From Polynucleobacter hallstattensis (GTDB lineage: Bacteria; Pseudomonadota; Gammaproteobacteria; Burkholderiales; Burkholderiaceae): 64,000 nucleotides of DNA. Location: positions 1,054,001 through 1,118,000 of the forward strand of contig NZ_JACVPO010000001.1 of the NCBI RefSeq assembly GCF_018881835.1. The letters run 5' to 3'. Positions within the stretch are counted from its first letter, which is position 1. Each line of letters begins with the position of its first letter. The notes beneath the pieces were generated by a model. The model did not search any database. It was not told the origin of the DNA and saw only the letters and a list, made by a program, of their open reading frames with translations. Below are positions 52,260-59,392 of this stretch, piece after piece. The position numbers and the translations under genes are program-made.

Positions 52260-53354
52260 ATGTCCAGTGACAGTAGCTCATTGCATTCCTCTGCAGTGAT
52301 TAATGAAGCGGTACAAGCTTTGCGAGATGGTGGCTTAGTTGCCTTTCCGACTGAGACGGTTTATGGCTTGGGGGCGGATGCAAAGAATCCTGATGCAATC
52401 AAAAAAATTTTTACTGCTAAGGGCAGACCATCCAATCACCCATTAATTGTTCACCTTGCAGCGCCTGATAAGTTCGATCGGGCTCAAATAGATTGGGTGC
52501 CAGTGCTAGCGCCGTGGGTAAGAGATTTGTCAGAAGATGCATTAAAACTCATCAACACTTTTTGGCCAGGTCCACTGACCTTAGTCTTTAAAAAAGATAA
52601 AAGCGTTTTGAATGAACTGACTGGTGGTCAAGATACGGTAGCCATTCGAGCGCCAGCCCATCCAATTTCGCAAGCCTTATTGCGTCAGTTTCAAGGTGGA
52701 ATAGTAGCGCCTTCAGCTAATCGATTTGGAAAGGTATCGCCAACGAGTGCGGCTGATGTCCGTGACGAGTTTGATGACGTATTAGATTTGATGATTTTAG
52801 ATGGTGGCGATTGTGAGGTCGGTATTGAGTCGACCATCATCGATTTATCATCTAGTGATCGCGCAGTTTTGCTGCGACCTGGCCTGATTACTCCAAGTGA
52901 AATTTCGACCAAGACCGGCATCAAAGTCTATTTACCTGGTGAGGATGCTGTCAGTAAGCGGGATGCTGCTTTACCAAGAGTATCTGGAAGTCTACGTGCG
53001 CATTACGCCCCAACGACGCCATTAAGAATGTATGCCTCAGGACGCATCTTAGATGCGCTGAGTGAGTTTCCGGATATAAAGTCGCAAGTAGCAGTTGCAG
53101 TGTGGGATTCAGACTCCTCATTGGGTGAGGATGGTCATCCATCCGTTCATTTTGAGGAAGTGATTGTTCCTAGTGATAGTACTGTGTTCACAAGTCGCCT
53201 ATATCGGACCTTACGGGACTTAGATCAACAGGGTTGGGATCTGATTCTGTTTCCGGAGCCGCCACCAGGCGAGGAGTGGGATGGGGTTCGGGACCGACTT
53301 CAGCGCGCCTGTTTTGGATCTGGGCCATCATTTAGTAACCACGCCAATAGTTGA
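52260..53354 (+). CDS. tsaC: Threonylcarbamoyl-AMP synthase (Sua5 type)
   Basis: Makes threonylcarbamoyl-AMP from threonine, bicarbonate and ATP for the t6A37 modification of tRNAs reading ANN codons. The 364-residue protein has the YrdC domain with GGLVAFPTETVYGLGADAKN near residue 25, KGRPSNHPLIVHL near 55 and SANRFGKVSPTSAADV near 150, followed by an additional Sua5 C-terminal domain, which E. coli TsaC lacks. So it is the long Sua5 form. The 3' end overlaps the convergent dacB gene by 55 bases. Confidence 0.94.
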   Translation: MSSDSSSLHSSAVINEAVQALRDGGLVAFPTETVYGLGADAKNPDAIKKIFTAKGRPSNHPLIVHLAAPDKFDRAQIDWVPVLAPWVRDLSEDALKLINTFWPGPLTLVFKKDKSVLNELTGGQDTVAIRAPAHPISQALLRQFQGGIVAPSANRFGKVSPTSAADVRDEFDDVLDLMILDGGDCEVGIESTIIDLSSSDRAVLLRPGLITPSEISTKTGIKVYLPGEDAVSKRDAALPRVSGSLRAHYAPTTPLRMYASGRILDALSEFPDIKSQVAVAVWDSDSSLGEDGHPSVHFEEVIVPSDSTVFTSRLYRTLRDLDQQGWDLILFPEPPPGEEWDGVRDRLQRACFGSGPSFSNHANS

Positions 53355-54853
53355 TCATGGGCGTCTAAGCCTCTCAAGGCATTAGGGTGGTTTATGAAAG
53401 AGGTCACCGCATACATCCTTCCAGACTTACTCATCACATAGCCTGATATTGCTCTGACGTCTACAAGTGCCCCTGTTTTGATACGAGCCTCAGGCTTTTT
53501 CTTGAGATGTAGAAATTTTCGTAAATGTGCCATGAGGCGATTTTTCATTGTGCCATCTGTCCCTGCAATCGGAAGGCTGTTATAAAACGTATCTGCAACG
53601 GATAAGTTACGAGCTGCAACTAATAATTGCGTCATATGTTCAGCTGAGATTGCTTCATTACGAGATAGGCCAGAGCCATTTTCAATAACGAGCTCTGGGA
53701 ACTGAAGTCCTAATCCCTTTAGCCAACTCTGAATCACAAGCTCGCCATTCTCAGTAGTCGCTGGTTTACCCATTTTCTCTAAAGCCAAGGTCAGCATAAG
53801 TTGTCTAGCCATGACGTTGTTAGAATATTTATTAATATCTTGTACGTTGTCAGCCAAAGTGAGGCCTTCAAATTGCAGTAGTAGTCTTGCCCCTAGAGGA
53901 ACAGTACTTGGCTTGCCAGTAGGTGCTTGTTTCCAAGTTCCGCCAGCCAATTCCCAGGCTGCAGCAAATCCTTGAGTAAGAAATGTGTTGGCATCTAAAG
54001 CAACGACGTTGTAATTCACTCCCTTACACGTATTTGGAAAGCTTCCAGAAAACTGTGCAGTCAGAAGCTGGTTGGTAGTTGCTTCATCACCTTCGGGATC
54101 TAGGTTAAAGCGAATATTATTTTTCCAACTATCGCAAGATTGCGCAACTAATTGCATTTGGTTAACCACCTTGAGTTGGGATAGTGGTGGCGTGTAGCTA
54201 ATATCAATGAAGTCCGCAGTGCGAGATTTACCCAGCTGAAATGAAAGCGTTCTAAAAGCGTACAGCAGGGGATCGGGCGGTACGTTATAGGCACGCAGCG
54301 ATTCGCCATCAATAGTGTTGTGTTCCATAACGCTAGGGGCATAGGCACTTCTATCAAAGAATAGGTTGCCATCGATTTTTTGTATGCCTAGATTTTGTAG
54401 GGCCTTCATCATTTTGACGAATTCTTCAGGAATCAGTTTTGGATCTCCGGTGCCTTGCAAATAGATATTGCCTTTGAGGGTACCCTGACGAATAATTCCA
54501 TCGGTATATAGATTGGTGCGCCAACGATATTGTGGCCCCAACATATCTAAGCCAGAGAGGGTGGTGACGAGCTTCATAGTGGAGGCAGGATTCATCGCTT
54601 GCTTTGAGCGCCAGTCCAATTTTGTTTTTGCTGTTATGTTCCCTGGCTGCCCTGAATTCATTTCCACTACTGAAATGCTGATCGCCCCTTTGGGGATCTG
54701 ACTCTTCTCAAGGCTAGCGGCTACGGCCTTAGGAATAAGCTGAGGGACAGTTTCCTGAGAAACTAGATCGGCAGAAGATATCTGTGGGCTAAATAATAGG
54801 CTAGCCAACACGGCAGCAGTAATGAATGAAGAGTTTCGGGTATGCATGCCCAA
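53300..54853 (-). CDS. dacB: D-alanyl-D-alanine carboxypeptidase/endopeptidase (PBP4)
   Basis: A periplasmic class C penicillin-binding protein that trims and cleaves peptidoglycan cross-links. The 517-residue product has a signal peptide (residues 1-28), the SxxK motif S91-T-M-K94 in NPASTMKLVTTLSG, an SxN motif in NKYSNNVMARQLML and a KTG motif in ARIKTGALVDVRA near residue 460. Domain inserts between SxxK and SxN are as in other PBP4 proteins. The 3' end lies inside the tsaC 3' end on the other strand. Its 5' end is close to the stop of the hybrid kinase gene but the promoter is not seen. Confidence 0.94.
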   Translation of the reverse strand: MGMHTRNSSFITAAVLASLLFSPQISSADLVSQETVPQLIPKAVAASLEKSQIPKGAISISVVEMNSGQPGNITAKTKLDWRSKQAMNPASTMKLVTTLSGLDMLGPQYRWRTNLYTDGIIRQGTLKGNIYLQGTGDPKLIPEEFVKMMKALQNLGIQKIDGNLFFDRSAYAPSVMEHNTIDGESLRAYNVPPDPLLYAFRTLSFQLGKSRTADFIDISYTPPLSQLKVVNQMQLVAQSCDSWKNNIRFNLDPEGDEATTNQLLTAQFSGSFPNTCKGVNYNVVALDANTFLTQGFAAAWELAGGTWKQAPTGKPSTVPLGARLLLQFEGLTLADNVQDINKYSNNVMARQLMLTLALEKMGKPATTENGELVIQSWLKGLGLQFPELVIENGSGLSRNEAISAEHMTQLLVAARNLSVADTFYNSLPIAGTDGTMKNRLMAHLRKFLHLKKKPEARIKTGALVDVRAISGYVMSKSGRMYAVTSFINHPNALRGLDAHDQLLAWLLNDGPDPKQAR

Positions 54854-54895: not shown

Positions 54896-57325
54896 TTACC
54901 GCCGATATTTTTTCTTGTAGGTCTCGATAGTTTGATTTTGTTCTTTTAGAAGGGCGATGAATTGCTTAATGCGCTCTATAAGTGGACCATTCGCTTGAAG
55001 TGATTCGCATGCATGAGTGAATTCAGTAGCCTGCAGCAGTTGTGCCCCACCTTTGACTTTATGAACCAGACTTTGAAAATAGACTTCATCAATTAGGATT
55101 TGATTGCCATCTGATTGCAATTGATGCAGAGTGTCTAGGTGAACCTTCTCAATTTCCTCCAGGATCACTATAATCTGGTGGGAATCATTTTTGATGAGAT
55201 TAGAGAAGGCATCAAACGAATAGACCTCACTAGTGGGGCCCGACTCTCGGCTGGAGTCAAAATAACGTAAAAGTTCATTTTCAAGAGCGCCCAAACTTAA
55301 AGGCTTGATGAGTACGCCATTCATGCCAGATGATAAAAATTGATGGCGAGAGTCTAGAGCATAAATATCTGCAGTGACACCAATAATGATTAAGTCACGA
55401 TTACCGAGAGATCGGATTTGTTTAGCTAATTCAGAGCCTTGCATTCCTGGCATCGATTGATCTGTTAGCATCAGATCAAATTGATACTCCTTCATTAACT
55501 GTAATGCCGTAGTTGCATTCTCACAAACGCAAGTACTGATACCAAGCGCTTCTAATTGCAGGGATAAAATTTGCCGACTAGCTGGGTGGTCTTCAACTAC
55601 TAAAGCATGAATGTGAGAATTTTTTCGACCCGATCTTTTTAAAATTAAGTTCTTAGATGATGGTACGAGCGAATTAAAGCCCGGAGCCTGTGCTGCAGCA
55701 ACACTCGTTCTAGGAAGTGCCACTGAAAAGTGGACATTGCTTCCAAAGCCTGGGGCGCTCTCAAAATAAAGGTGGCTGTTCATGGAATTCACCAAATGAT
55801 TGGTGATGGTAAGACCAAGGCCGGTCCCCCTCTTTTGCTCTGATAGATAAGACTCTTGCGCAGCTGGTAATTGCTCAAAAGCTTGCAGAGCCAATTTAAT
55901 TTGATCACTTCCCATTCCTACTCCAGTATCAATCACCCTGAACTCGAGTAATTGACCAGCATGATCATCAGCTAGAACGCTGGTAGAAAAGTACACCTCA
56001 CCTTCAGCGGTGAACTTAATCGCATTGCTCAGTAAATTCTGTAGAACTTGTCTCAGACGTAAGGAATCAATCATGAGTACTTCAGCGATTCTGGGATCAA
56101 TCGAAGTGTGGAGTAGCAGATTCTGTTTCTTAGCTACTGTAGAAAATGCCGCATGAATATCCATAATCAATTGATGTGGATTGCAAGGCTCTAGGTTGAG
56201 GGTGAGTTTGCCAGCCTCAATCTTAGAAATATCTAACACTTGATTGAGCATACCCAAAAGAGACTCGGCAGAAGCTTGAGCACTTTTTAGTAGAGGCTTA
56301 TCTTTCTTAGGAAATTGCGCGCTACCAAGCAGTAGTTCTTGAACGCCCAAAATAGCATTCATCGGTGTGCGAATTTCATGGCTCATAGTTGCTAGAAAGG
56401 CTGACTTTGCAGCATTCGCTTTTTCAGCCAGCTCTTTTGAGTGAAGTAACTCATGAGCGGTTTTCTTTTGGTCAAAATATTTTCTTTGGAGTTGATAAAA
56501 CATCGCTCCACCAATCATGAGAATAAGTGTGGCGCTCAGCCAAGGAAGTAGGTTTGAACCTCGCTTGTACTCATCGTCTAATACAAAAAGCTGACGTGAT
56601 GCAATAGGGTCTAAGTCATTTAAAAAGTGGCTCAGTACGTCGTGAAGTGGGGCGTGCTGGTCTGAGATGAGCCAGCGATAGGCAAAAGGATCGCGACTAT
56701 ATAAACCATCAATTTTTAGATCTGAATTTTGGTTTTCACGTAATAGTTGACGTGCCAAGCGAATGGGCATGACTAGTGCCTCGATGTCACTTTTAATGAG
56801 AGATTGAATTAAGCTGGCGGGCGACTGCGCCTCTTTAATGTCGCTGAAACTATTAATACTGGCAGGCGCATTTTCAAGACCTCGATCAAAGTAGCCAATC
56901 TTCACAGAGCTTGAGTCCAGCTTACTTGAGGACTTAGTGACAATAGCATCATGACCCCAAAAGATGGCTTCAGATAGAGATCCAAATTGCAATACGTGGT
57001 CATCAATGTTTGGTGGATCAATGATGAAATCTACCTCGCCTTTACTGAGCTGCCTTAAGCCTTCAGAGTCTGATTTTCTCCATACCGGAACATATTGCTG
57101 TCGTGTGCACTCTTCAATTTTGGATAGCAGCGCCATAAAGGGTGCCGTACCCTGCTGATGACTAGATGGGCTGAGATAGGAGGCATATTTTTCGTGAATA
57201 CTGAAGCGCACAACTGGATGGGCATCGATCCATGATTGCTCAGCAACGCTAAAGGGTCCGGCATCCGCTAGACCTGCATAGACACAGCAGAGAATGAATA
57301 CTTTTTTCAATATGAACCGATGCAT
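54896..57325 (-). CDS. BvgS/EvgS-like hybrid sensor histidine kinase
   Basis: An 809-residue multi-domain sensor. A signal peptide (1-22) is followed by one periplasmic Venus-flytrap-like (SBP_bac_3-type) domain at about 30-250, a membrane span at about 258-278, a HisKA domain with His316 in MSHEIRTPMNAI, an HATPase domain (LLSNAIKFT near 432, DTGVGM near 466, GTGLGLTIT near 500), a receiver domain with Asp622 in TDQSMPGMQG and Lys674, and a C-terminal HPt domain with His755 in VHKVKGGAQL. This is the BvgS order with a single sensing domain and no PAS. It is seven bases after its response regulator gene, so it forms an operon with the regulator and the EAL-like gene. Confidence 0.92.
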   Translation of the reverse strand: MHRFILKKVFILCCVYAGLADAGPFSVAEQSWIDAHPVVRFSIHEKYASYLSPSSHQQGTAPFMALLSKIEECTRQQYVPVWRKSDSEGLRQLSKGEVDFIIDPPNIDDHVLQFGSLSEAIFWGHDAIVTKSSSKLDSSSVKIGYFDRGLENAPASINSFSDIKEAQSPASLIQSLIKSDIEALVMPIRLARQLLRENQNSDLKIDGLYSRDPFAYRWLISDQHAPLHDVLSHFLNDLDPIASRQLFVLDDEYKRGSNLLPWLSATLILMIGGAMFYQLQRKYFDQKKTAHELLHSKELAEKANAAKSAFLATMSHEIRTPMNAILGVQELLLGSAQFPKKDKPLLKSAQASAESLLGMLNQVLDISKIEAGKLTLNLEPCNPHQLIMDIHAAFSTVAKKQNLLLHTSIDPRIAEVLMIDSLRLRQVLQNLLSNAIKFTAEGEVYFSTSVLADDHAGQLLEFRVIDTGVGMGSDQIKLALQAFEQLPAAQESYLSEQKRGTGLGLTITNHLVNSMNSHLYFESAPGFGSNVHFSVALPRTSVAAAQAPGFNSLVPSSKNLILKRSGRKNSHIHALVVEDHPASRQILSLQLEALGISTCVCENATTALQLMKEYQFDLMLTDQSMPGMQGSELAKQIRSLGNRDLIIIGVTADIYALDSRHQFLSSGMNGVLIKPLSLGALENELLRYFDSSRESGPTSEVYSFDAFSNLIKNDSHQIIVILEEIEKVHLDTLHQLQSDGNQILIDEVYFQSLVHKVKGGAQLLQATEFTHACESLQANGPLIERIKQFIALLKEQNQTIETYKKKYRR

Positions 57326-57332
57326 ACAGTTT

Positions 57333-57956
57333 TTAGCTTTCGATGATGTTGTTCATGCGGCAGAACAAGATCAAGTCAGCAATATTATTAATACCTAGTT
57401 TGTCAAAGACTCTGGTCTTGTAGGTTGCAACTGTCTTATTACTAATGTGCAGTAGGTCTGATATCTGCTGGTTGGTATTGCCTTTGCCTAGATACTTCAT
57501 GACTTGAAGCTCACGATCCGATATCAATGCCAATTTGTCGTTATCGCTCAAGGAAGTGTTGCCGTTCTTGCCATGTGTAAAGAAGGTATAGCCTTGGGAG
57601 ATAGCAACGCATGCAGCCAAAATGACATCAGCCCCAGCAGTCTTATTCACAAAACCATGCGCACCTAAGGACCGCACTCTGCCGCCATAGACTGCTTCAT
57701 CTAGGCTAGATAGCACCAGAATACGAACTTCTGGATGCATCAAGCCAATCCGACGGATCACATCAAAACCATCCGTCTTGGGCATATCCAAATCTAAGAT
57801 GACCATATTAGGATTGACTTCTTTAATTGAGCGTAGGCACTCTTCACCATGCTGCGCCTGTCCTGCAATCTCAAAAAGCAATTGATCTTGCAACATACTT
57901 TTTAATGCCATCAGCATAGCTGGATGGTCATCTACCAACATCACGCGTTTTCTCAT
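57333..57956 (-). CDS. LuxR/NarL-family response regulator (BvgA-like)
   Basis: A 207-residue regulator. The N-terminal receiver has the acidic pair in LVDDHPAM, the phospho-acceptor Asp55 in VILDLDMPKTDG and Lys105 in VNKTAG. The C-terminal GerE/LuxR helix-turn-helix covers about residues 143-205 (ISDRELQVMKYLGKGNTNQQ, HISNKTVATYKTRVFDKL). Expected to receive phosphate from the HPt of the kinase coded downstream. Its start codon overlaps the stop of the EAL-like gene by one base, so the two are translated together. Confidence 0.94.
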   Translation of the reverse strand: MRKRVMLVDDHPAMLMALKSMLQDQLLFEIAGQAQHGEECLRSIKEVNPNMVILDLDMPKTDGFDVIRRIGLMHPEVRILVLSSLDEAVYGGRVRSLGAHGFVNKTAGADVILAACVAISQGYTFFTHGKNGNTSLSDNDKLALISDRELQVMKYLGKGNTNQQISDLLHISNKTVATYKTRVFDKLGINNIADLILFCRMNNIIES

Positions 57957-58789
57957 TACTTGTCTCCGTTTTGGGTTTTATGAGGGTGCAGCGAAAAAAT
58001 GGCCTTGGCGATACGGCTATCGCTCATGTGTAGCATTTGATGTCGGCTTACTGGTGGCATCATGAGTCCGCCATAGCTATGGTGCGCCCCCATTGCCATG
58101 ACATTTTCTAAATCTTTCACCAGGGTGATGTTGCTGGCATAGATTTGGGTCTGGAATTTCTGGCCAAGGGAAATCATTTCGCTTGGTAAGCCATCAGCTC
58201 GAAATTGCCCCATCTCAATATGAATGCCCTCGGGCTCGATCTTCTCTACCCAGCGGATTTGCGCACTCGCCCCAGAAAAATCAAGAAGATGGATCAGAAC
58301 GCCGAGACGACGCATTCGCAATAAGCCCTCCATGCAGGATTCCATAGAGTCAGCATCCTTGAGTTTGTGCATGCCCAAACTTACTAGGCCAACTGGAAGT
58401 CGTGAGTTCAGAATGAGGTCACTTAAAGCATCTATAAAACTGCTTGATGTCAGATGTTGCGCTGGTATCGGTAAGATGCCTGGAATGAAGCGACCGCTAC
58501 GGTACCAATACGTAATGGTATCTAAGCCCTCCATGAACAATCTGAGGAGCTGCGTGTCGGTAGCGGTCAGTAATGGTCTAAATAAAGAGCTCGTCAGCTT
58601 AGTTCCTTGGCTATTAAAGATGGGTTCGTTACTAATCGCTTGTCGCTGGGACCAGGATTGGTGTTCTTCTAGCGCTTCGCCACTGAGACCAAGCCAAGGC
58701 TGGCCGCAAGCATCGCGCACTTCTTGGAAGGGTTTGTTCTTCCAAGCCTTTACAAGCGTGTACAGCCGGGATTTCGGGCTCATCAGCAT
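57956..58789 (-). CDS. Degenerate EAL-domain protein
   Basis: A 277-residue soluble protein whose residues about 70-255 follow the EAL phosphodiesterase pattern in order: PIPAQHLTSSSFIDALSDLI (helix after the NLS motif), LPVGLVSLGM (place of ExTE), LGVLIHLLDFSGASAQIRWV (DDFGTGYSSL), IHIEMGQF (KID), IYASNITLVKDLENVMAMG (AEGVE) and HHSYGGLMMPPV (QGYLFSKP). The catalytic Glu, Asp and Lys residues are mostly replaced, so it should not cleave cyclic-di-GMP and may bind a ligand or a partner. It is the first gene of the operon with the LuxR regulator and hybrid kinase. Confidence 0.78.
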   Translation of the reverse strand: MLMSPKSRLYTLVKAWKNKPFQEVRDACGQPWLGLSGEALEEHQSWSQRQAISNEPIFNSQGTKLTSSLFRPLLTATDTQLLRLFMEGLDTITYWYRSGRFIPGILPIPAQHLTSSSFIDALSDLILNSRLPVGLVSLGMHKLKDADSMESCMEGLLRMRRLGVLIHLLDFSGASAQIRWVEKIEPEGIHIEMGQFRADGLPSEMISLGQKFQTQIYASNITLVKDLENVMAMGAHHSYGGLMMPPVSRHQMLHMSDSRIAKAIFSLHPHKTQNGDK

Positions 58790-58935
58790 TCTCCAATCAT
58801 TGAACAGTCAGTCTAGGCAGGACAGATTGGAGGAGTAAGGGCTTAAAGCTTATTTATGTGTAGGAATCCACCTACTTACCTGCCTCTATTATAGAAAGAG
58901 CAGGAGACTCATTTGAAATTTAAGGTGAATTTGCC

Positions 58936-58992
58936 CTTGAAATCCCTGGAATCAGACCTATATAATCAGCACTCCCTACACGCGAGTGCTAA
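58936..58992 (+). promoter_or_regulatory. groESL promoter with CIRCE operator
   Basis: TTGAAA (58937-58942), an 18-base spacer and TATAAT (58961-58966) form a sigma-70 promoter. CTTGAAA with ACCTATAT 13 bases later also partly fits sigma-32. The CIRCE operator for HrcA, TCAGCACTC-N9-GAGTGCTAA (58966-58992), differs from consensus by one base and overlaps the transcription start. The remaining gap from 58790 holds nothing else that I can identify. Confidence 0.93.
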
Positions 58993-59101: not shown

Positions 59102-59392
59102 ATGAATCTGCGTCCTTTACATGATCGCGTAATCATTAAACGTTTAGATCAAGAATCAAAAACTGCCTCTGGAATCATTATTCCGGATGCTGCTGCTGAA
59201 AAGCCGGATCAAGGTGAAGTATTGGCAGTTGGCCCAGGCAAGCGTGATGACAGCGGCAAGTTGAATGCACCAGACGTCAAAGTTGGCGATCGCGTGTTAT
59301 TTGGCAAATATGCAGGTCAAACAGTTAAGGTCGGCAGCGATGAGCTTCTCGTTATGCGCGAAGAAGACATCATGGCTGTTGTACAGAAGTAA
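59102..59392 (+). CDS. groES: Co-chaperonin GroES
   Basis: The heptameric lid of the GroEL folding chamber. The 96-residue protein has [15 protein letters not shown], the mobile loop with [10 protein letters not shown], and [29 protein letters not shown] precedes the ATG. It lies 109 bases after the CIRCE element, giving a long leader, and groEL follows after 26 bases. Confidence 0.98.

Follow-up and report, generated by a model that had tools for sequence, protein, structure and literature searches.

BvgR is reported to be a catalytically inactive EAL protein that lacks 12 of the 13 EAL residues and is encoded beside bvgAS as a BvgA-activated gene (PMC11537037 and PMC12805831, in the text available), and the raised cyclic di-GMP (c-di-GMP) of a bvgR mutant is read as a degradation role in the available part of PMC10955343. 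RocR and PvrR are REC-EAL proteins, phosphodiesterases or thought to be so, whose genes accompany those for LuxR-type regulators and unorthodox kinases, and both proteins oppose those regulators (PMC2696094 and PMC12051241, in the text available). Here, a locus of similar composition is described from Polynucleobacter hallstattensis (contig NZ_JACVPO010000001.1, positions 1,054,001 to 1,118,000; this whole stretch of 64,000 nucleotides is referred to as the window). It consists of a degenerate EAL-like gene, a response regulator gene and a hybrid histidine kinase gene, all on the minus strand and transcribed in that order (Table 1). The locus is most likely the BvgR and RocR theme with a dead EAL protein that lacks REC, stands first in its operon, and persists without a detectable cyclase. 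No description of this Polynucleobacter locus in a c-di-GMP, two-component, or EAL context was found among the papers listed from a largely open-access literature.

The likeness to BvgR, which is judged by description, lies in a stand-alone EAL protein without catalytic residues that is encoded beside BvgA and BvgS homologues within the same order, and in an expression that is apparently tied to the regulator, as judged here from the conserved position of an inverted repeat. However, bvgR lies downstream of bvgS behind its own BvgA-activated promoter, whereas the Polynucleobacter gene is first in its operon and coupled to the regulator. Likewise, BvgR acts amid many c-di-GMP proteins, while the Polynucleobacter gene occurs in genomes without a detectable cyclase. 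The locus resembles Pseudomonas RocR-RocA1-RocS1 and PvrR-RcsB-RcsC in that an EAL protein, a LuxR-type regulator and an unorthodox kinase are encoded together, and the Roc kinase has a periplasmic SBP_bac_3 domain in the model given in the available text of PMC12051241. In contrast to the Polynucleobacter protein, which has neither a REC domain nor catalytic residues, RocR and PvrR have a REC domain and are described as phosphodiesterases. The regulator and kinase architecture is shared with Escherichia coli EvgAS, and EvgA and EvgS are the nearest solved relatives. EvgS has two matching Venus-flytrap stretches and a PAS domain (PMC8174306, in the text available), whereas the Polynucleobacter kinase has one flytrap-type domain and no PAS match; the same source gives evgAS as probably not autoregulated.

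Fur and BluR are given as partners of the degenerate EAL proteins YdiV and BluF in the accessible portion of the literature. YdiV and BluF share with the present protein a catalytically dead EAL fold and a proposed action on a transcription regulator. FlhDC is a further partner in degenerate EAL systems of this type, and we know of no link between YdiV or BluF and a phosphorelay operon. By analogy, BvgR and RocR appear to be closer parallels than the YdiV/CdgR-like proteins that were named in the initial annotation of this locus.

That annotation, which was made from the letters alone, had traced an EAL fold in the first protein and had considered its catalytic acidic residues lost; both statements were upheld. 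The window protein matched Pfam EAL (PF00563) with an E-value of 1.1e-4 (22.1 bits), under the 31.3-bit gathering cut-off. A match at E up to 1 was obtained for 25 of 28 family members, and in a wider genome search a few members exceeded the cut-off (e.g., those of genomes G009 and G078). Pfam found EAL alone, and no REC domain, in the window protein. Alignment of the family profile to three genuine EAL domains by hhalign gave an E-value of 1.3e-13, so profile searches do return the EAL relation whose absence the annotation had named as contrary evidence. Structure prediction of the protein alone, which had been proposed as a check, gave the EAL fold (AlphaFold; mean predicted local distance difference test score (pLDDT) 80.9, most of the barrel > 85). 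Foldseek matched this model to 8arv (E 2.3e-13), VIA aligned it to 5yrp over 211 residues (Z 23.5, 3.0 A), and EAL structures stood in every Foldseek and VIA row among the matches listed. The VIA alignment rows cover mainly residues 41-261, and the N-terminal helix is outside any fold claim. As modeled, the TIM-barrel EAL fold is real; the EAL relation is weak in a single sequence and strong by profile and structure. Residues 5-20 form a strongly conserved basic segment (PKSRLYTLVKAWKNKP), which is predicted as a helix ahead of the barrel with a low-confidence linker, and which is possibly a partner-binding or membrane segment.

As aligned to the profile, the protein has other residues at six catalytic and metal positions: Asn is replaced by P107, Glu by G139, Asp by L169, Lys by H190, Glu by S219, and Gln by Y239. 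The sole survivor among the placed catalytic positions is the second Asp of the DD pair (D170), and just 26 of the 99 relatives have Asp at this position. Residue counts were made over 99 distinct proteins, from which duplicates and proteins < 255 amino acids (aa) were left out. The EAL-motif Glu falls outside the profile alignment, and residues 62-76 are without a conserved acidic residue. GEAL at residues 40-43 was considered as a surviving EAL motif and rejected, given that the model puts the motif strand at residues 65-70, where no conserved acidic residue occurs. By inspection, the first strand has Glu (E55, 96%) in place of its substrate-contacting Gln. The replacement residues are themselves kept in the homologues (P107 in 94/99, H190 in 96/99, and Y239 in 95/99), and Y10, W95, P132, G134, R161, G163, R197, G240, and Q251 have a conservation of 1.00. 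From these alignments, the protein is most likely without phosphodiesterase activity, and its pocket seems to have been rebuilt with other conserved residues and not left to decay. The near-invariant His for Lys, Tyr for Gln and Pro for Asn, together with R161, R197, H250, and Q251, lie behind a decidedly unlikely reading in which the barrel would be a receptor for a ligand other than c-di-GMP, or for a peptide of the regulator or kinase, and would gate the phosphorelay in bacteria without c-di-GMP.

The ratio of nonsynonymous to synonymous substitution rates (dN/dS) of the EAL-like gene was 0.06-0.14 in all 10 comparisons, each made against the window gene, and the gene is under purifying selection. 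For the regulator, dN/dS was ≤ 0.013 in the nine of 10 comparisons that were computable, and for parts of the kinase it was 0.06-0.17 where computable. That the EAL-like gene is a functionless relic kept by its operon position is scarcely credible: breakage of the gene in several lineages speaks for it, but the dN/dS values and the 30 positions that are at least 93% identical over the 99 homologues speak against it.

The three genes are closely packed, and the junctions described in the initial annotation agree with the coordinates: the EAL-like stop and the regulator start share one base (TAATG), and the regulator and kinase genes are 7 bases apart. Among 106 distinct loci, the one-base overlap was found in 65 and a four-base overlap in 16 more (starts of open reading frames (ORFs) chosen by script), a pattern that is far beyond chance. 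Translation of the EAL-like gene probably starts at 58783, because 98 of 99 homologues have Met3, many homologues start at it, and a few carry TTG at the first position; the spacing from GGAG to this start is 7 bases.

The EAL-like gene was matched in 92 of 101 Polynucleobacter genomes (76/79 of those of high quality). In the family sample, 65 of 398 genomes matched at 1e-5, with every strong match in Polynucleobacter; the six matches outside the genus were weak (best 2e-8) and lay in open frames of 456-1194 aa. In the order sample (399 genomes), matches outside Polynucleobacter were parts of open frames of 723-1448 aa (best 5.8e-15). As far as sampled, the degenerate EAL protein thus appears to be genus-restricted. 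Gene order was counted from tblastn matches and script-chosen ORFs, which gave 107 distinct loci from part of the 92 genomes with a match. In 106 of these, the EAL-like gene is followed on the same strand by the regulator and at least some of the kinase, the exception being a contig end. Of the 106 kinase matches, 72 extend at least as far as residue 770; in 33, the fetched DNA stops earlier, and the kinase of locus L118 (G017) is eroded. The three-gene order, which had been put forward for checking in other Polynucleobacter genomes, is therefore conserved, and the sole homologue found without the regulator was a broken remnant in G188; homologues without the two-component genes were what the annotation had named as contrary evidence. 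Ten genomes without an EAL match, four of them of high quality (G069, G084, G095, and G283), were searched for the regulator; nine of the ten also had no regulator at E 1e-40, and the tenth has a regulator 51 bases from a contig edge.

Detection of GGDEF proteins bears on any role for c-di-GMP. In the window genome, a single GGDEF protein was found, along with one PilZ match that is below cut-off; no EAL match was found there besides the present sub-threshold protein. The single GGDEF gene (in the region G000:C1:462741-466371, L097) encodes 258 aa with a GGDEF motif and RxxD upstream, and near it lie YcgR/PilZ-like, rpoN-like, FlgA-like, and several bactofilin-like genes (by eye except for GGDEF and PilZ). 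A GGDEF protein was detected in 70 of the 101 Polynucleobacter genomes and not in 31, and EAL was found above cut-off in 32, where five of the matches are members of this degenerate family. The EAL-like gene is present in 29/31 genomes without GGDEF vs 63/70 with GGDEF; among high-quality genomes, it is present in 21/21 without detectable GGDEF vs 55/58 with GGDEF, although the copy in G001, one of those 21, is broken. Being as frequent without GGDEF as with it, the gene is kept regardless of detectable c-di-GMP synthesis, and a protein that is kept where no cyclase is detected probably works by protein contact. Gating by c-di-GMP as a shared function, which the initial annotation had suggested, was rejected given the presence of the gene in all 21 of these high-quality genomes. 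A gate in which c-di-GMP would still be bound by the dead EAL pocket and so be reported to the regulator has in its favor the kept EAL fold, the GGDEF protein and PilZ match of the window genome, and a model of the same kind in print for BvgR (PMC12805831, in the text available). It is nevertheless very unlikely in view of the frequencies given above, of the surviving DD Asp that varies across the family, and of the first-strand Gln that reads Glu.

The regulator was matched by Pfam Response_reg (4.6e-23) and GerE (6.5e-18), and its nearest PDB relative is EvgA (5f64, E 7.3e-33). In the kinase, Pfam found HisKA, HATPase, and REC, with HPt weak (0.0051) and below cut-off; no Pfam match to PAS was found in the window kinase, nor any to its periplasmic part. 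The His of HisKA, the Asp of REC, and the His of HPt are conserved in 31 of 31 aligned kinases, window kinase included. A sensor profile of 11 relatives matched EvgS in the PDB (9ilw) at 1.2e-8 (two stretches summed; best alone 2.7e-4) and BvgS (3mpl) at 2.1e-6, and the structure model of the sensor domain was of low confidence (mean pLDDT 66.4). By these profiles, the kinase is a single-Venus-flytrap relative of the EvgS/BvgS design with a sensor of ~220 residues, and the BvgAS-like phosphorelay that had been named at the outset is borne out by the sensor matches, the EvgA relationship, and the relay residues. Kinase membrane segments were called by hydropathy. The periplasmic part is ~235 aa between two hydrophobic segments in close relatives and ~115-125 aa in L092 and L121, and kinases of the divergent group (EAL protein identity 23-29%) are 510-595 aa long, too short to accommodate a periplasmic domain. 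With the EAL-regulator pair constant while the kinase sensor changes, the EAL protein seems to be coupled to the regulator or the core of the kinase rather than to the signal. The kinase N-terminus is 97% identical to that of the window in L006 (G031) and 75% in L005 (G059), whereas the EAL proteins of both are equally close (93-94%); this suggests recombination of the kinase sensor region.

Upstream of the operon, an inverted repeat, GTAGG-N6-CCTAC, is found 69-71 bases ahead of the first ATG. Of 96 distinct upstream regions, 77 carry the exact repeat, and relaxing one base to admit GTAAG (G[TA]A[GA]G) raises the count to 80. Matches that start after residue 8 and loci with < 200 bases upstream were left out of this set, and duplicates of a region were not counted again; these rules removed four loci of the divergent group (L100, L105, L107, and L114). 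Sixteen regions in all are without the repeat, of which L045, L084, and L115 lie outside the divergent group; in L101 and L104, a similar repeat ending in CTTAC was seen elsewhere upstream (by eye). The regulator would bind this repeat. The form GTAGGNNNNTTCCTAC, which alone was used for the genome-wide search, occurs exactly once in each of five genomes (G000, G012, G018, G077, and G004), always at this operon, and such a unique exact site suggests autoregulation through one strong site. A wide regulon was considered and rejected, given that matches with ≤ 1 mismatch were fewer than those of a reversed-pattern control in all five genomes (3/14 in G000, 3/9 in G012, 4/7 in G018, 4/14 in G077, and 2/16 in G004, matches/control).

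The hexamer TAGACT lies 26 bases ahead of the first ATG and shows little or no variation across 73 aligned regions. With TAGACT as the -10 element, the repeat would be centered near -64 of the putative transcription start, which is close to the BvgA sites reported at -65.5 (B. holmesii) and -67.5 (B. pertussis fhaB) in the available text of PMC2225982. A letter consensus for EvgA or BvgA sites was sought in the literature, which gave positions and no usable letters. The conserved block spans the repeat to the start codon even where the DNA farther upstream has been replaced (L007, L009, L013, and L034; by eye). Foreign DNA was seen by eye between groES and the operon in L007, L009, L013, L015, L034, L083, L084, and L088, and with one exception it halts before the inverted repeat, as though the operator block were shielded. 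The exception is L084 (G035), where the foreign DNA extends to the first EAL codons and the inverted repeat was not seen.

Two long-range stems, CTCCAATC/GATTGGAG and ATCAGC/GCTGAT (the latter pair with a mismatch in the window), can be drawn in the leader (58784-58850) so that they cover GGAG and the start codon; the stems are without covariation support, although their 5' arm is conserved. An RNA switch, in which such stems would mask the ribosome site together with the start codon, with the inverted repeat as an RNA hairpin, draws on this pairing and on 25 leaders (98-100 bases) that fold at z +0.9 to -3.4 vs simple letter shuffles. It was rejected as highly improbable: over the 69 leaders of exactly 99 bases to which the pairing test was confined, no compensatory two-sided change was found in 19 pairs, changes break pairs (one pair in 31/69 leaders), and Rfam gave no match at this leader.

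The explanation that we prefer, to which about an even chance is given, is that of an autoregulated EvgAS/BvgAS-type phosphorelay with a co-made, non-enzymatic EAL partner acting by protein contact. The kinase would sense a periplasmic signal through its single Venus-flytrap-type domain, and phosphate would pass from His to Asp to His, all three present in the aligned kinases, and then to the Asp of the LuxR-type regulator. The phospho-regulator would bind the repeat at 58860-58875 and activate the operon from a class I position. The EAL protein would then be made when the relay is on, at a ratio to the regulator that is tied by start-stop coupling, and would need no c-di-GMP, at least in lineages without a detectable cyclase. 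Its target would most likely be the regulator or kinase of its own operon, on which it would act as a feedback modulator; the fixed EAL-regulator pairing favors this choice.

An alternative within the same scheme, a BvgR-like output acting on another regulator, comes close behind the own-operon target. In its full form, the regulator would serve mainly to have the EAL protein made, and this protein would act on an unrelated transcription factor. The EAL-like gene is indeed first behind the only exact operator match of the genome, and bvgR is beside bvgAS and activated by phospho-BvgA (PMC11537037 and PMC12805831, in the text available). Against this, the regulator is intact where the EAL-like gene is broken, and bvgR has its own promoter while the present gene is co-operonic and upstream of the regulator, so that this full form is a possible but doubtful one.

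A RocR/PvrR-like antagonist without receiver domain and catalysis, which would damp the output of the LuxR-type regulator, was weighed with a survey of other Burkholderiales. The BvgS sensor was matched in 51 Burkholderiales genomes, and in 20 loci that were fetched, no stand-alone degenerate EAL protein was found near BvgS-like kinases. A REC-EAL gene lies near a BvgS-like kinase in 3/20 (L207, L213, and L223), and two of these three loci also have a LuxR-type regulator similar to that of the window; L224 has a REC-GGDEF-EAL gene. This recurrence of an EAL gene with a LuxR-type regulator and a BvgS-type kinase speaks for the antagonist. RocR and PvrR oppose RocA1 and RcsB, and RocR3, with catalytic motifs that are maybe compromised, does so partly (PMC2696094 and PMC12051241, in the text available). 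The best PDB profile match of the EAL family is RocR (E 1.1e-4), but it is barely ahead of other EAL domains (24.7 vs 23.4 bits), and descent from RocR was rejected because the match is not separable from them. The three REC-EAL proteins scored 12-24 bits vs up to 55 for GGDEF-EAL type proteins. As the window protein also has no REC domain, an antagonist of this kind is considered unlikely.

Several observations weigh against the preferred explanation of a relay with an EAL partner. The inverted repeat is absent in all 13 divergent-group regions examined (23-29% identity). The EAL-like gene is broken beside an intact regulator in a number of genomes: G065 and G001 have stops, L088 (71A-WALBACH) has a frameshift, and further broken copies are those of G017, G023, G347, and G421. 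These pseudogene calls were made from the number of stops and the length of the ORFs. The relay therefore seems to be useful without the EAL protein. In G188, an EAL remnant with a stop is found with no regulator at 1e-40. Taken with the joint absences reported above, loss of the genes appears to be joint in most cases, although the relay can persist once the EAL-like gene is gone. Furthermore, the regulator is near-invariant while the EAL protein drifts, and a tight co-evolving interface is thus not visible. The intact regulator beside broken EAL-like genes and this near-invariance weigh against a relay that depends on the EAL protein.

Polynucleobacter are widespread freshwater bacteria (PMC2408644, in the text available), and the locus suggests how such a group senses its surroundings. 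The genus offers a natural test, because it keeps a BvgR-like arrangement throughout while no diguanylate cyclase was detected in 31 of the 101 genomes sampled. The contact partner of the EAL protein would tell if a dead EAL protein can steer a BvgAS-type relay without a second messenger, and the conserved operator is a ready reporter.

Table 1. Positions of the operon genes and of the elements upstream of them in the window.
Feature	Position	Strand	Basis or remark
Degenerate EAL-like gene	ORF as listed 57956-58789 (277 aa); with probable start at Met3, 57956-58783 (275 aa)	minus	
Response regulator gene, LuxR/NarL-type (REC + GerE)	57333-57956	minus	Pfam; nearest solved relative EvgA
Unorthodox hybrid histidine kinase gene	54896-57325	minus	periplasmic sensor, transmembrane segment, HisKA, HATPase, REC, HPt
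Kinase sensor domain, EvgS/BvgS Venus-flytrap relative	56579-57238	minus	~residues 30-249, placed by profile positions
Shine-Dalgarno GGAG	58791-58794	minus	sequence
-10-like hexamer TAGACT, putative proximal promoter	58810-58815	minus	column conservation; promoter function inferred
Inverted repeat GTAGG-N6-CCTAC, putative regulator-binding site	58860-58875	.	conserved position
Second, upstream sigma-70-like promoter TTCAAA-18-TATAAT (candidate)	58888-58917	minus	consensus scan, 10 of 12
CIRCE-like element AGCACTC-N9-GAGTGCTAA of groES	58968-58992		a few tens of bases away from the promoter region of the divergent EAL operon

Sigma-70-like matches such as the upstream candidate in Table 1 were not above shuffles (11 found vs 10.3 expected). 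The element at 58968-58992 is one that we take to be CIRCE. The operon is flanked by groES-groEL, which is divergent and begins at 59102, and by a D-alanyl-D-alanine carboxypeptidase-like gene (53300-54853); names of flanking genes were taken from their translations, without a family search. The latter, dacB-like gene is on the minus strand, and its 3' end overlaps that of a YrdC/Sua5-like gene (52260-53354, plus strand, by eye) by 55 bases (53300-53354).

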